DNA of 64,000 nt from Polynucleobacter sp. CS-Odin-A6 (GTDB taxonomy: Bacteria; Pseudomonadota; Gammaproteobacteria; Burkholderiales; Burkholderiaceae): the NCBI RefSeq assembly GCF_018882095.1, contig NZ_JACVPD010000002.1, positions 186,001-250,000 of the forward strand, read 5' to 3'. The notes under the pieces were generated by a model. That model ran no database searches. It worked only from the letters and a program-made list of their open reading frames with translations, and was not told where the DNA came from. Below, piece by piece: positions 970-15,406 of the stretch. How positions within the stretch are numbered: the stretch's first letter is position 1; every line of letters begins with the position of its first letter. The position numbers and the translations under genes are program-made.

Positions 970-1203
970 TTAAAACCCATATACAAAAAAGTTGGGGTTG
1001 AAAATATTACTTGGTTTATAAATAATCGGCTCTTTATTCGATGTTAATAATCTACCCCTTACCCCTATCACTACAGCATGTCCTGCTGGGGTATTCCGAA
1101 TGCAAGTAGGTCCAAAGCACGGGTAAATATCTATCAGCGGAACTAAATGATCAATCATCGCTTGCTCAGTAAAACCTAGAGGAGCAAATTTGGTAATAGT
1201 CAT
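970..1203 (-). CDS. Small hypothetical protein, possibly a remnant of a papain-like protease
   Basis: A 77-residue frame with an ATG at 1201-1203 but no clear ribosome binding site. The stretch IDIYPCFGPTC followed by NTPAGHAVVIGV resembles the His-containing region of C39/papain-like cysteine peptidases, where GHAVVV is typical. There is no N-terminal domain with a catalytic Cys, so if the resemblance is real this is a fragment. It lies alone between the sugar transferase and the TSUP transporter. It could equally be a chance frame. Confidence 0.35.
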   Translation of the reverse strand: MTITKFAPLGFTEQAMIDHLVPLIDIYPCFGPTCIRNTPAGHAVVIGVRGRLLTSNKEPIIYKPSNIFNPNFFVYGF

Positions 1204-1272: not shown

Positions 1273-2040
1273 TTAGGCTAAAAGCCTGATTGCGACTAAA
1301 GCAAGAACTACCGCAATGCAGATTCGCAATGGCGTCTGCGGCAACTTGCTGGATAGCGTCGCCCCAATAAGCACACCTGGGATAGAACCAATTAAGAGCC
1401 AGCCTAGCAGACCAAAATCAATGTTGCCAATGAATAAATGGCCCATGCCAGCAAACATAGCTAATGGAATAGCATGCACGATATCGGTTGCAACCAGCCT
1501 AGCGGGTGTGAGTCTTAAAGGGTAAAGATAGGTCAACATCACTACACCCACGGCACCTGCGCCAATTGAAGTTAAAGTTACTAAGCCGCCTAATATCGCC
1601 CCTGCAATAACAGTCAAAGTTGGCTGCCAATATTTAAAGTGCTGCGCATCACTTAAGCGGAAATCTTTGCCAATCACATGAAGTTGTTTTTGAAACAACA
1701 TGCTCACAGCAGTAATCAGGATTGCAATGGCTACCGCATCCTTCAAGGAGGATGTTTCAAGGGCTATATAGCCGCCCCGCATCAGCAAAATCATGATGAC
1801 AGAAACCGGCAAACTTCCCATCCAAAGATAATGCAATACTTGCCAGTCAATCAAACCCTTGGTGTGATGCGTTTTGCCTGCAGCCATTTTGGTGATGGCT
1901 GCAAACCATAAATCAGTGCCAATGGCAGTTACTGGGGCCACTCCAAAAAATAAAAGCAATAAGGGCGTCATTAGCGCCCCGCCCCCAACTCCGGTCAAAC
2001 CCACTACTACACCCACCAAGAAACCCGCCAATATAAGCAT
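1273..2040 (-). CDS. TSUP (TauE/SafE) family anion exporter
   Basis: A 255-residue polytopic inner-membrane protein with about seven or eight hydrophobic segments. The opening GFLVGVVVGLTGVGGGALMTP is the family signature of the first TauE/SafE repeat, and a second repeat begins near residue 145 (AGAILGGLVTLTSIGAGAVGVV). Family members export or import sulfite, sulfoacetate, sulfate and related anions. It is divergent from, and directly next to, the cysD-cysNC sulfate-activation operon, which favours a sulfur anion (sulfite or sulfate) as substrate. That is inference from position, since the family is broad. Confidence 0.88.
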   Translation of the reverse strand: MLILAGFLVGVVVGLTGVGGGALMTPLLLLFFGVAPVTAIGTDLWFAAITKMAAGKTHHTKGLIDWQVLHYLWMGSLPVSVIMILLMRGGYIALETSSLKDAVAIAILITAVSMLFQKQLHVIGKDFRLSDAQHFKYWQPTLTVIAGAILGGLVTLTSIGAGAVGVVMLTYLYPLRLTPARLVATDIVHAIPLAMFAGMGHLFIGNIDFGLLGWLLIGSIPGVLIGATLSSKLPQTPLRICIAVVLALVAIRLLA

Positions 2041-2122
2041 TTGAATGTCCTTAAACCTTTGAATTACCTACTGTTGGATGCATGATTAAATGAAAATGAT
2101 TATAGTCAGTAAAATACTTTAC

Positions 2123-2149
2123 ATATTAAATAATATTGTTGTTTAATAT
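2123..2149. promoter_or_regulatory. Perfect 8-bp dyad just upstream of the HTH-cysD start
   Basis: ATATTAAA (2123-2130) and TTTAATAT (2142-2149) are perfect inverted arms separated by 11 bp, ending 5 bp before the ATG at 2155. The 114-bp gap between the divergent TSUP gene and cysD must hold both promoters. A dyad in this place is where an autoregulator would bind, and the downstream protein starts with a helix-turn-helix domain. AT-rich DNA makes chance dyads more likely, so the operator role is a hypothesis. Confidence 0.45.
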
Positions 2150-2154
2150 AAAGC

Positions 2155-3924
2155 ATGAACGCCAAAGCTAGCCTAAATCGACAGAAAAGTTCTCTAAGCC
2201 TTAGAAAGGAAGCAATTCAATTGCGTCAATCTGGATCAACGATTGCTCAAATTCAAGAGGCAACAGGCCTGAGCGCGCCAACAATCATTGCCTTAAATAA
2301 AGCCTATCAAGCCGGTGGATTGCAAGCGGTAATCCAAAGAAAAGTAGGTCGACCACGCAAAACATCAAAAGATATAAATACTCTAGGGCAATGGGAAACC
2401 GTTTGGAAGCAATTATTTCACGAAAAAAGAAAGCAACTTTGGACCTTTGATTCATTAGCCAAATGGCTTATGGAATTTCAAAACGCTGGGCACGGTAATT
2501 TTGGTTCACACTCTAGACTCGTAAATAAGCGCGGTGCAATGCGCCTGCTAAAAGAATGGGGTTGGCTTCCCCATGCTAATGAGCAAGCAAGCACAACTAT
2601 TTTGGGAAAAGCAGCGCAAAAAAAGTTTCGTGTTTTTGTTGGCACGGATTTGAAATTACCCAACATCAAATTCACCAAGCAAGATTACTGTTTACTCTAT
2701 GCAAAAGATCTTCGTGGCAAGCTATTTTGGAACTTTTATACATACCCACTTAATGAAGATAGTTACGTCGAATTTTGCCAAAAATTACTTGATACCAACC
2801 CAGCAGGCATTGCTCTGGAACTACACTTTGCCGGGCTTTCTTACACGCCGAAACTAGTTTCGTGGGTTGCAAATAATAATCAGCATGTATTACTCAGGGA
2901 TACTTCAAACCCAGTTGCTGGTATCGACATATCATCTGTAACCCCAAAAACGCAATCAAAAAGAATAGTATCAATGACTTCAGATAAGCAAAAAACTCCG
3001 TCAGAAAAGTCTAAATTAGACCAAAATACCCTCACCTATCTGGAACGCCTTGAAGCAGAGAGCATTCATATCATGCGTGAGGTTGTTGCCGAGGCAGATA
3101 ATCCAGTGATGCTCTACTCTATTGGTAAAGATAGTGCTGTGATGCTACATTTGGCATTGAAAGCTTTTTATCCAGCCCCGCTGCCATTTCCATTACTTCA
3201 TGTCGATACGGGCTGGAAGTTTAAAGATATGTATGCCTTTCGCGATCAAATGAAATACGAGCATGGGTTTAAACTGCTTGTGCACATGAATCCAGATGGC
3301 GTGGCACAAGGAATCAACCCTTTTACCCATGGCTCACAAATCCATACCGATATCATGAAGACCCAGGGACTCAAACAGGCTTTAGATAAGTATGGCATTG
3401 ATGTGGCTTTTGGTGGCGCACGACGTGATGAAGAAAAATCGCGCGCCAAAGAGCGTATTTTTTCGTTTCGCAATAGTCAACACCGCTGGGATCCTAAACA
3501 GCAACGTCCAGAATTATGGAATTTATATAACACCAGAAAACATAAGGGCGAAAGCATTCGAGTCTTCCCGATTTCCAATTGGACTGAGCTCGATATTTGG
3601 CAATACATTTACCGAGAAAATATTCCGATTGTGCCTTTATACTTTGCCCAAGAGCATCCAGTTGTGGAGAGAGATGGCACGCTCATTATGGTAGATGACG
3701 CACGTATGCCGCTAGCCCCCGGTGAAGTTCCGATGATCAAAAAGGTTCGCTTTAGAACCTTAGGCTGTTATCCGTTAACCGGCGCAGTTCAATCTCAAGC
3801 AGATACGTTGCCACGAATTATTCAAGAAATGTTACTAACTAAAACCTCCGAGCGTCAGGGCCGCATGATTGATCATGACAATGCTGCATCTATGGAAAAG
3901 AAAAAACAAGAGGGCTACTTTTAA
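2155..3924 (+). CDS. cysD: Sulfate adenylyltransferase subunit 2 (CysD) fused to an N-terminal IS630-transposase-like domain
   Basis: The protein has 589 residues, against about 300 for ordinary CysD. Residues about 285-589 are a complete Cys[20 protein letters not shown], then YSIGKDSAV (the PP-loop ATP site) and [16 protein letters not shown]. With CysN it converts sulfate and ATP to APS in the cytoplasm. Residues 1-273 are foreign to CysD: a helix-turn-helix at about 15-60, a basic GRPRK hook (65-69), a winged-helix-like part (about 78-140) and an alpha/beta part (158-250). There [19 protein letters not shown] (219-237) lines up with the IS630 block around the second catalytic Asp, with that Asp replaced by His and the following Asn and His also lost. 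An internal ATG at 2974 could start a normal CysD but has no good ribosome site. The gene is followed without a gap by cysNC. The CysD call is firm; the origin of the extension is inference. Confidence 0.9.
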
Positions 3925-5840
3925 TGGCAAATCAAAGCCAATACGCTGATTCGATTAATGAAGATATTGAGGCGTATCTCCAAAATCATCAATATAAAAC
4001 GCTACTACGCTTTATCACCTGTGGTAGTGTTGACGATGGTAAGAGCACCCTGATTGGTCGCCTGCTTTATGAATCTAAAATGCTGTTTGAAGATCAATTA
4101 GAAGCGCTGGAGGCTGACTCCAAAAAATTGGGTACTCAAGGCCAAAATTTAGACTTCGCCCTGCTTGTCGACGGTTTGGCCGCCGAGCGCGAACAAGGCA
4201 TCACCATTGATGTGGCTTATCGATTCTTCTCAAGCGATAAACGTAAATTTATCGTGGCCGATACCCCAGGCCATGAGCAATACACCCGCAATATGATTAC
4301 TGGCGCCTCGACTGCGGATCTAGCCATTGTGTTAGTAGATGCACGACAAGGTATCTTGACGCAAACCAAACGACATAGCTATCTCGTTTCTTTGATGGGC
4401 ATTAAAGAGATTGTCTTGGCTGTAAACAAAATGGATTTAGTGGGCTACGATAAAGACGTCTATGAAAACATTGTTCAAGACTATCTGAAATTTATCCAAG
4501 GTCTACAAAAACAGAATGGGGAATCTTGCCAATTAAAATTTACGCCGATCCCGATGTCGGCTCTGGCAGGTGATAACATCACCACTCCAAGTAACCAAAT
4601 GAGCTGGTACCGTGGCCCAACATTAATGGGTTATTTAGAAACAGTACCCCTTGAGCAAGGCCAAGCGCTCCAAAGATCCTTTAGGATGCCCGTGCAATGG
4701 GTCAATCGCCCCAACCATGAATTCAGGGGTTTTGCAGGCACGATTTTCTCCGGAGAAATTGCCCCAGGTGATGCAATCCGTATTCATCCCTCTGGTAAAG
4801 AGGCCACCATCAAATCGATAGTGACTAAAAACGGTCTTCTTAAGAAAGCAATTGCAGGGCAAGCAATAACCTTGACACTCACCCAAGAGGTAGATATCTC
4901 TAGAGGTGATGTCCTCAGTAAGCCGCAAGATCCTGCAACTGTAGCCGACCAATTTGATGCCCAAATTGTCTGGATGAGCGAAGAGCCCCTCTACCCCGGT
5001 AGAAGCTATTTACTCAAATTGGCTACACAAACAGTGAATGTAACTGTGACCAAAATCAAGCATCAAGTTAATGTCAATACCCTTGAGAAATTGGCAGCCG
5101 ATAAGTTAGACCTCAATGCAATCGCCGAATGCAATATCGCGACAGATAAGCCCCTTGTATTTGATGCTTATCTAGAAAATAGCGCCATGGGAAGCTTCAT
5201 TCTTATTGATCGCGTCACCAATAATACTGTTGGTGCCGGCATGATACATTTTGCACTTAGACGCTCAAGTAATATTCAAAACCAGTTTTTTGAAATCAAT
5301 AAAGGAGCTAGAGCAGCCTCAAAACAACAAAAACCGATGTGCCTATGGTTTACTGGCCTCTCGGGCTCAGGAAAATCGACTATTGCCAATGCTCTGGAAA
5401 AAGAACTCTATCAAATCGGCAAGCATACCTACATCCTCGATGGGGATAATGTGCGCCATGGCCTAAACCATGACTTAGGCTTTACCGAAGCTGATCGGAT
5501 TGAGAATATACGCCGCGTTGCTGAAGCAGCAAAATTGATGGTTGATGCTGGTTTAATAGTGCTCGTAACCTTTATTTCCCCATTCCAAAAGGATCGAGAA
5601 ATGGCTAGAAGTAAATTTGCAGAGGGTGAATTTATAGAGATTTTTGTTGACACCCCGCTAGAGGAATGCGAGAAGCGGGACCCCAAAGGACTCTATAAGA
5701 AAGCTAGGCAGGGATTAATTAAGAACTTTACTGGGATTGACTCATCCTATGAGCTACCTTTAAATGCAGAAGTAGTACTTAATCCGTTTAATTCACAGGA
5801 AAAGATACTAGCCCATCTAAGGCTATTATGGAGTTTATAA
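3924..5840 (+). CDS. cysNC: Bifunctional sulfate adenylyltransferase subunit 1 / APS kinase (CysN-CysC fusion)
   Basis: A 638-residue protein starting on the last base of the cysD stop codon, so the two are co-translated. The N-terminal part is a translation-factor-like GTPase: GSVDDGKST (34-42), DTPGHEQY (113-120) and NKMDLV (168-173), followed by beta-barrel domains to about residue 440. The C-terminal part is APS kinase with its P-loop GLSGSGKST at about 478-486 and the [10 protein letters not shown] motif about 35 residues later. Together with CysD it makes PAPS from sulfate. The fusion is the NodQ/CysNC arrangement. No reductive sulfate genes are beside it, and a PAPS-type sulfotransferase lies 9 kb away, so supply for glycan sulfation is a plausible role. 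Confidence 0.95.
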
Positions 5841-14344: not shown

Positions 14345-15406
14345 TTAATTCATGTATTTATTAATTATTATTTTCTTTTTTAATAATTTATATAACGAAT
14401 AATTTGATTCTTGTGTTGATAAAATTATAATATTCTTATCTTTATTATTAATATTGCTAATATTAGTTTTTATTAATTTCTTGAATAATAGAAAGTCAAT
14501 TTTAAAAATGAAATTCATTACTGCAGAATGAATTTTATCGGCTAAATATATTTCCAAGAAATAGATGTCCCATCTCTTTATACTTTTCAATTTTTTAATC
14601 TTAGCTATAAAATTAATTTTTAGAGCTGCCTGCAAAACTCTAGCTAAGATTTTGTATAAAAATATTGTAAATGAATCATAATTATCGACTGTGTAAAAAA
14701 ATCTATTTAATAATCGCATGATGTACAAGCCAAATGGCGATGGACTAGTATTATTCTTGGCAATAGAATTTAGACTAATATTTGATTTAGATATCTTTAA
14801 AAAATCTTCAATATCTGACTTAACCTTATCTGCATTTTGTTGTATTTCTTCGTATAAATATATATGAATATTATTAATTCCAAAATATTTTATATATTCG
14901 CTAACTAAATTAAAATACTTAACTTTATGAATTAAATGTCTACCTGGAGATAGTGGACTACTAATTAAATCATGAAACGATAAAACACCACCCCTTTTCA
15001 CATATTCTGCATACATTGAATTTAAAAAAGATACTGGCTCACGTATTCCAATAATAATTTTGACCTCTCCAACTGGAAAAACATCATATATTCTTTTCGC
15101 AACAAATAATGTTAAGCCGCCAAACCAATCAAACCCACCACTTAATCCCTCGTCACTTAACCCAATTAAATTGCTGTGTTTATCATTAGTTTGCAATATC
15201 TCTTTTAGTAAATTTTTATTTTTTTTTATATCAAATTCGCTATCTGATGATTCATATAGGTTGTGAAATAGCTCTATGATCTTTGGTCTTGGATAATTTG
15301 TGGCTTTACCAAGGTAAAAGATATCCTCATGATTGCTAAATAAATAATCTTGAAGAAATGTTGTTGCTGTCTTATGATAGCCTATATGTATGAAATATCT
15401 ACTCAT
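14345..15406 (-). CDS. PAPS-dependent sulfotransferase
   Basis: A 353-residue protein. The N terminus FIHIGYHKTATTFLQ contains the 5'-phosphosulfate-binding loop (HKTATTF, 11-17) and IREPVSFLNSMYAEY (121-135) is the 3'-phosphate-binding block of sulfotransferases. It should transfer sulfate from PAPS to a hydroxyl, here probably on a sugar of the polysaccharide made by neighbouring enzymes. PAPS would come from the cysD-cysNC operon about 9 kb to the left. It overlaps the flippase gene upstream by 4 bp, so both are probably on one transcript. The C-terminal 120 residues are Lys/Ile-rich and not recognisable. Confidence 0.83.
   Translation of the reverse strand: MSRYFIHIGYHKTATTFLQDYLFSNHEDIFYLGKATNYPRPKIIELFHNLYESSDSEFDIKKNKNLLKEILQTNDKHSNLIGLSDEGLSGGFDWFGGLTLFVAKRIYDVFPVGEVKIIIGIREPVSFLNSMYAEYVKRGGVLSFHDLISSPLSPGRHLIHKVKYFNLVSEYIKYFGINNIHIYLYEEIQQNADKVKSDIEDFLKISKSNISLNSIAKNNTSPSPFGLYIMRLLNRFFYTVDNYDSFTIFLYKILARVLQAALKINFIAKIKKLKSIKRWDIYFLEIYLADKIHSAVMNFIFKIDFLLFKKLIKTNISNINNKDKNIIILSTQESNYSLYKLLKKKIIINKYMN

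Follow-up and report, generated by a model that had tools for sequence, protein, structure and literature searches.

Transposases of the IS630/Tc1-mariner type (NF033545) carry a helix-turn-helix (HTH), a winged HTH and an RNase-H-like part, in this order, together with a GRP motif and a catalytic DDE/DDD triad. Host-transposase fusions are a source of transcription factors in animals, and in SETMAR/Metnase, as in other eukaryotic fusions, a mariner-type transposase domain has been captured by an enzyme gene. PutA, BirA and NadR are trigger enzymes, with an enzyme and an HTH in one chain. Ordinary CysD, to our knowledge, has no DNA-binding part. The origin of the TldR proteins lies in a nuclease-dead TnpB, a disabled transposon protein that became a bacterial transcription factor. 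TldR proteins are described as TnpB-derived regulators (PMC13418256).

The window, a stretch of 64,000 nucleotides from Polynucleobacter sp. CS-Odin-A6 (contig NZ_JACVPD010000002.1, positions 186,001 to 250,000), contains a cysD gene which can be compared with each of these systems. The front of its product resembles the IS630/Tc1-mariner proteins in the order of its parts, in the GRP motif and in a profile match over the whole domain, but the catalytic acids are replaced or missing, the domain is cut before the third of them, it is fused to an enzyme and it occurs in a single copy. As in SETMAR/Metnase, a transposase domain was captured by an enzyme gene, and the Metnase structure is found among the Foldseek matches; the window fusion is, however, bacterial, has a metabolic enzyme as its partner and bears the transposase part at the N-terminus, with a putative DNA binding. 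Like PutA, BirA and NadR it unites enzyme and HTH and could act on its own operon, whereas its HTH is transposase-derived and its regulatory role is a prediction. With TldR it shares the use of a disabled transposon protein, but TldR is RNA-guided and here a protein HTH is fused to an enzyme. Residues 291-589 are an ordinary CysD, as in the CysD-CysN ATP sulfurylase (1zun_A). No description of a CysD-transposase fusion was found in the titles and abstract openings of the open-licence literature, subscription papers aside, and neither IS630 nor CysD occurs in the available text of the review PMC8987985. The best explanation of the locus, with a probability of roughly 0.6, is that the captured transposase acts as an autoregulatory DNA-binding module of a trigger enzyme; this explanation includes the origin of the domain and a role of the enzyme in providing PAPS for sulfation.

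Table 1. Features of the fusion locus and its surroundings (positions in the window unless another locus is named).
Feature	Position	Strand	Basis
cysQ remnant, 77-aa frame, both CysQ ends joined, middle missing	970..1203	-	
Divergent TauE/SafE-type sulfite exporter gene	1273..2040	-	Pfam in window
Conserved upstream block of fusion gene	2103..2154	+	alignment of three species
Candidate operator, imperfect inverted repeat ATATTAAA-N9-TGTTTAATAT	2123..2149		motif searches
Fusion gene, dead IS630-like transposase domain + CysD, 589 aa	2155..3924	+	one ATG-started frame
First HTH, residues 13-61	2191..2337	+	Pfam HTH_29/HTH_28; helices 13-25, 30-37, 41-54, 56-61 in both models
GRPRK stretch, residues 65-69	2347..2361	+	weak AT-hook match, E 0.11
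Second (winged) HTH region, residues 71-134	2365..2556	+	helices 71-89, 98-110, 125-134; Pax5 and Paired domains aligned over 5-120
RNase-H-like remnant, residues 157-248	2623..2898	+	profile, predicted fold, alignment
Unconserved linker, residues 253-289, includes internal ATG 2974	2911..3021	+	alignment of relatives
CysD, residues 291-589	3025..3921	+	TIGR02039/PRK12563; Foldseek 1zun_A
cysNC (GTPase + APS kinase), directly downstream of fusion gene	3924..5840	+	name read from sequence
Sulfotransferase-like gene, about 10 kb away from fusion	14345..15406	-	PF00685 E 1.5e-4, 21.7 bits vs cut-off 22
Group B inverted motif pair	L105 822-915; L107 3030-3123; upstream of N-extended cysD in L108-L110, L027		

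The sequence-only reading had joined about 273 residues with HTH, winged-helix and alpha/beta parts to a complete CysD in one uninterrupted frame. The single frame was borne out, and its CysD half is complete (TIGR02039, 509 bits over residues 296-589, cut-off 396.6), so that an enzyme domain and an HTH domain stand in one chain, the architecture of trigger enzymes. The HTH, winged HTH and RNase-H-like parts were likewise recovered, the boundary having to be moved: the transposase homology ends at about residue 250 and is followed by a non-conserved linker to about 289. Residues 17-108 match the NCBIfam IS630 model with E 1.6e-8 at 34 bits, well below its curated family cut-off of 100 bits, and residues 17-70 match Pfam HTH_29 just under the cut-off (E 3.3e-6). 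The HTH is the best-kept part of the domain in the form termed here group A, that with the first HTH, since 15 of the 21 invariant columns of a six-row alignment fall within residues 20-67; GRP is invariant across the same alignment. The domain is the sole match to itself within its own genome of 2.10 Mb.

The descent of the domain was best seen in profile comparisons. Ten group A domains aligned by hhalign with four IS630-type proteins gave a probability of 99.8 and E 4.4e-30 over columns 10-269, a match that covers both HTHs and the RNase-H part and stops before the catalytic Glu; of the four comparators only L053 lies above the IS630 family cut-off, L014 is internally deleted, and to the eye L006 and L013 seem shifted at their ends. 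A three-row profile of the N-domain found, among 672 frames, an IS630-type protein from the same family of bacteria, which it matched lengthwise (E 1.4e-12). The RNase-H part alone reached 4.6e-5, where 6,720 shuffled frames came no lower than 0.048, and the three-row profile without the HTH reached 9.5e-6, where 20 column shuffles came no lower than 0.16; with the winged-HTH part alone no IS630 protein rose above noise. In scans of the genome contigs the single sequence found nothing and the three-row alignment two loci. A PDB sequence search with the N-domain returned four matches at E 0.14-1.5, none of them convincing, and tblastn of plasmids gave no match at E 1e-2. As a separate observation, 22 places in Polynucleobacter (L054-L075), with frames of 153-437 aa, resemble the IS630 model over no more than roughly its first 120 positions; they perhaps belong to another insertion-sequence family with a similar HTH.

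The predicted fold is in agreement with this. After the helices 13-61 and 71-134 the model shows the order b1-b2-b3-a1-b4-a2-b5 (b1 159-167, b2 177-185, b3 190-197, a1 201-214, b4 219-224, a2 232-240, b5 245-247). The modelled domain was superimposed on integrase cores with Z 7.4 and rmsd 2.0 over 80 residues, more loosely on Mos1 (residues 7-254, Z 6.3, rmsd 18.8), and its front on Pax/Paired domains with Z about 6; the VIA Z values are all below 8, a level that can mark a common arrangement. Foldseek found IstA (1.9e-4), the Mos1 catalytic domain (E 3e-3) and Metnase (6.2e-3). These fold scores are moderate, and the model was built on a shallow three-row alignment. A first model of the N-domain alone had a mean pLDDT of 56.5 and no Foldseek match at E <= 1e-3; in the full-length model the N-domain was better and the CysD part poor (251-589 all < 50), and this model was used for the N-domain only. 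By predicted strand order, fold matches and profile, the fold is RNase-H-like, as in IS630/Tc1-mariner, and the N-terminal HTH is paired-like, the Pax/Paired matches being moderate. The resemblance to RNase-H-like transposases, without which the sequence-only reading would have fallen, is therefore present in the profiles and, more moderately, in the fold. The N-terminal 250 residues or so are almost certainly derived from an IS630/Tc1-type transposase; fusion, origin and loss of catalysis are together well supported.

The loss of catalysis is visible residue by residue. As had been proposed, the stretch at residues 219-237 can be aligned with the block that reads LILDNLRVHH in IS630-type proteins, with Asp replaced by His224, Asn by Phe225 and His by Ser229. 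The position of the first catalytic Asp is occupied by Thr164 (2644-2646) and that of the second by His224 (2824-2826), so that the triad is absent, and the N-domain is to be regarded as derived from the active IS630/Tc1-mariner family rather than as a member of it. In the alignment of ten domains the first Asp is kept in one of nine rows with a residue at that position (L081 of G914) and the second in two of ten, with a gap in two (L077 of G646 and L004 of G121). These retained residues are what could be cited for a still-active transposase or nuclease, which is scarcely credible, because no row of ten has two of the three catalytic residues, the region of the Glu has no counterpart in any of the ten, and the domain occurs as a single copy per genome in the host of the window.

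The two halves and the linker between them have evolved differently. The window was compared with L051 (Polynucleobacter alcilacus, of the same genus; the same contig stretch is found in G003) and with L052, G121 being too diverged. The CysD part is 88-92% identical, the transposase-derived domain 39-62% by segment, with dN 0.32-0.55 and dS 1.5-2.2 or saturated, and the 35 residues of the linker only 11-17%, with changes spread evenly over the codon positions (23, 24 and 22 in one pair, 24, 20 and 24 in the other). Between L051 and L052 the dN of the domain is 0.25-0.32. Judged by these codon comparisons, the N-domain is under purifying selection and the linker is not. The locus thus has what defines a host-transposase fusion, a transposase-derived domain in frame with a host domain and maintained by selection. 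It had been conceded from the outset that the upstream frame might be an artefact and CysD made solely from the ATG at 2974. That ATG is in frame, and the linker of L051, too, has an ATG immediately ahead of CysD, yet the codon is ACG in L052, L004 has no ATG there, and by eye the linker DNA holds no ribosome-binding site; the relatives, moreover, have the upstream frame open, and in the three that allow a comparison it is under purifying selection. An exclusively internal start is hence very improbable, and because of the conservation translation would begin at the upstream ATG.

The fusion is not peculiar to this assembly, a possibility which would have counted against the sequence-only reading, and it recurs in several lineages of freshwater and related bacteria. 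Group A was found in 11 species and group B, the form without the first HTH, in 8, each in four families as grouped by the search tool. Within the genus the N-domain was matched in 4 of 186 genomes, each time in a CysD fusion (window, G003, G180, G121). Three of 399 genomes match in the order, adding G646 and G704, two fusions from another family. In this second family 8 of 151 match, five of them fusions (G646, G704, G914, G939, G957) and three frames of 332-414 aa lacking a CysD signature. The class gave 11 of 321, with G1126 and G1225 as the fusions besides the window and seven frames of 304-355 aa from which the signature is absent; G1131, considered as a cut fusion, lies at the end of a contig and looks like an IS630-type transposase. 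In G1225 (L091) the HTH is joined straight to CysD and the RNase-H part is missing.

Searches starting from CysD led to the same picture. Within the genus 81 of 186 genomes match at E <= 1e-3, and seven have the high-scoring type (> 480 bits), namely the four of group A, the two unfused relatives G140 and G151, and G088, whose front part is shorter. In the second family 88 of 121 match at E <= 1e-60, and the nine places above 460 bits are all long frames of 485-612 aa, of which four belong to group A and five to the form with the shorter front. The class sample yielded 22 places in 21 of 129 genomes at E <= 1e-110, with the shorter form in G971 and G1029, group A in the window and neither seen in the other 19 (two unparsed). 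These counts leave out several long frames around an assimilatory-type CysD, e.g. of 687 in G786 and 597 in G911. The CysD profile searches show that the fusion is a type, not an accident.

The domain of group B is homologous to the remainder of the group A domain (hhalign E 5.4e-8, with L027, L105, L108 and L110 as the rows of the group B profile, which L107 matches at 6.4e-64). The long frames L133, L136, L138 and L146 match no domain profile, and L130 (483) neither of the two. A tree was built from 32 CysD domains, 11 of group A, 4 of group B, 2 unfused and 15 of the assimilatory type, a one-in-three pick (L107, L109, L137 and L139 were not included). In it groups A and B and the unfused relatives split from the assimilatory type at 100/100, group B forms one clade (99/100), and the unfused G151, a long branch, is sister to the fused G914 (97/97). 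The tree needs three changes, and would be compatible with one gain and two losses without proving them.

The region before the start codon bears on a possible DNA-binding function. In the three Polynucleobacter sequences 37 of the last 52 columns are identical, versus 10 of the 39 preceding ones. Of the 11 upstream regions of group A, 7 contain the 8-mer TGTTTAAT, a count that no word equals in 100 shuffled sets; after thinning of close relatives it is left in 4 of 7, which 2 of 100 shuffled sets reach. With up to two mismatches, the longer ATATTAAA-N9-TGTTTAATAT has five sites in five whole genomes, four of them upstream of the fusion gene (window genome G000, G003, G180 and, from the other family, G914), versus one site for its backward control; the sites of G000 and G003 match by construction, those of G180 and G914 do not. 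Its only other near match in the window's genome is G000:C2:244749-244775. In G121 the genome scan found no site, only a half site being present, and in L052 the left arm is weak. As inverted repeats the single loci say little: 7 of 20 shuffles reach the score of the window repeat, and this line of evidence was abandoned as only L051 and L081 of 17 loci beat all 20 shuffles.

Group B has a motif of its own, TTGTCGCAATATGC with an inverted copy 82-84 bp apart, in all six loci, from five lineages, that served to derive the motif and its spacing. The pairs have 22-26 of 28 matches per locus, which 0 of 200 shuffles reach in each case, and 23 upstream regions of unfused cysD genes score lower throughout, at most 17. 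A group B locus found later, L137, is borderline (19 at 84 bp, 1 of 200 shuffles); the candidate pair in L139 was rejected, 58 of 200 shuffles reaching its score of 17. The constant spacing possibly marks a looping operator.

Since the HTH is the best-kept part of group A, and since the two groups differ in their motif just as they do in their domain, autoregulation by the fusion protein is the simplest reading; it is likely, not proven, with DNA binding predicted from the sequence. Alternatively the domain, while real and expressed, could have no regulatory task: it might serve CysD structurally or in oligomerisation, or be a passenger that is tolerated, and the motif would then be a promoter element or the site of a different regulator. 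Neither half is indispensable everywhere, given that the first HTH is missing from group B and the RNase-H part from G1225; unfused relatives persist, the domain evolves several times faster than CysD, and the motif is absent upstream of L090 and L091, all of which would suit such a module. Against it stand the concentration of invariant columns in the HTH, the four of five longer-motif sites at fusion promoters, and the fixed-spacing inverted pair of group B, which the unfused controls do not match. As for the motif being part of a promoter, the sigma-70 scan of 2000-3050 was empty, and a sigma-70 promoter with leaderless start noted by eye (TTTACA/TTTAAT) was therefore dropped. The non-regulatory alternative is the less likely one.

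The probable use of the enzyme can be read from its surroundings, which are those of a surface-polysaccharide region. Four of the seven genomes with the high-scoring CysD type (G000 of the window, G180, G088 and G140, an assembly 83% complete) have no other PF01507 protein at E <= 1e-10, and hence no PAPS reductase and no second CysD was found in them; the remaining three have a separate cysH-cysD pair. The product of the sulfotransferase-like gene starts with HIGYHKTATTFLQ and has IREPVSFLNSMY further on, which we take to be PAPS-binding motifs, and a clear Sulfotransfer_2 gene is present in L051 (E 3.2e-10). CysQ removes the by-product PAP; its gene is whole in L051, versus the remnant in the window, and a CysQ neighbour was recognised by the DP[LV]DGT motif in L051, L077, L078, L081-L083, L108 and L109. 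A TauE/SafE-like neighbour was also seen by eye in L002, L003 and L004. Because the genome has no PAPS reductase and the polysaccharide locus contains a sulfotransferase-like gene, the CysD-CysNC pair probably makes PAPS for sulfating the surface polysaccharide and not for cysteine synthesis. A second-messenger role of PAPS for surface polysaccharide has been proposed in Vibrio (PMC6113621).

In this explanation, an IS630/Tc1-type transposase was captured in frame by the cysD gene and, as the alignment shows, lost catalysis through replacement of the first two acids, as in the window, and an end before the third; the domain was maintained, probably on account of its DNA-binding part. The bipartite HTH would bind the motif that immediately precedes the fusion gene, and the PAPS-making enzyme would in this way limit or tune its own synthesis, with binding probably changing once CysD is in complex with CysN or has nucleotide bound. 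Whether the control is repression or activation, and which signal it follows, are points that we infer. It is tempting to speculate further that the domain still pairs ends in the manner of a transposase, linking two inverted sites on either side of its own promoter, which in group B would lie 82-84 bp, about eight helical turns, apart and in group A would be close half-sites; the state of CysD as ATP sulfurylase, alone, with CysN or with nucleotide, would set the hold on DNA and make the PAPS supply self-limiting. This extension is doubtful, and is offered tentatively.

A recurrent bacterial case with a metabolic enzyme would show that the route from host-transposase fusion to regulator also exists in prokaryotes, where it can yield a self-regulating enzyme. 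The two groups with their different upstream motifs make it testable how the end recognition of a transposase becomes that of an operator. The locus suggests, moreover, that bacteria lacking PAPS reductase have a branch that supplies PAPS for sulfation.
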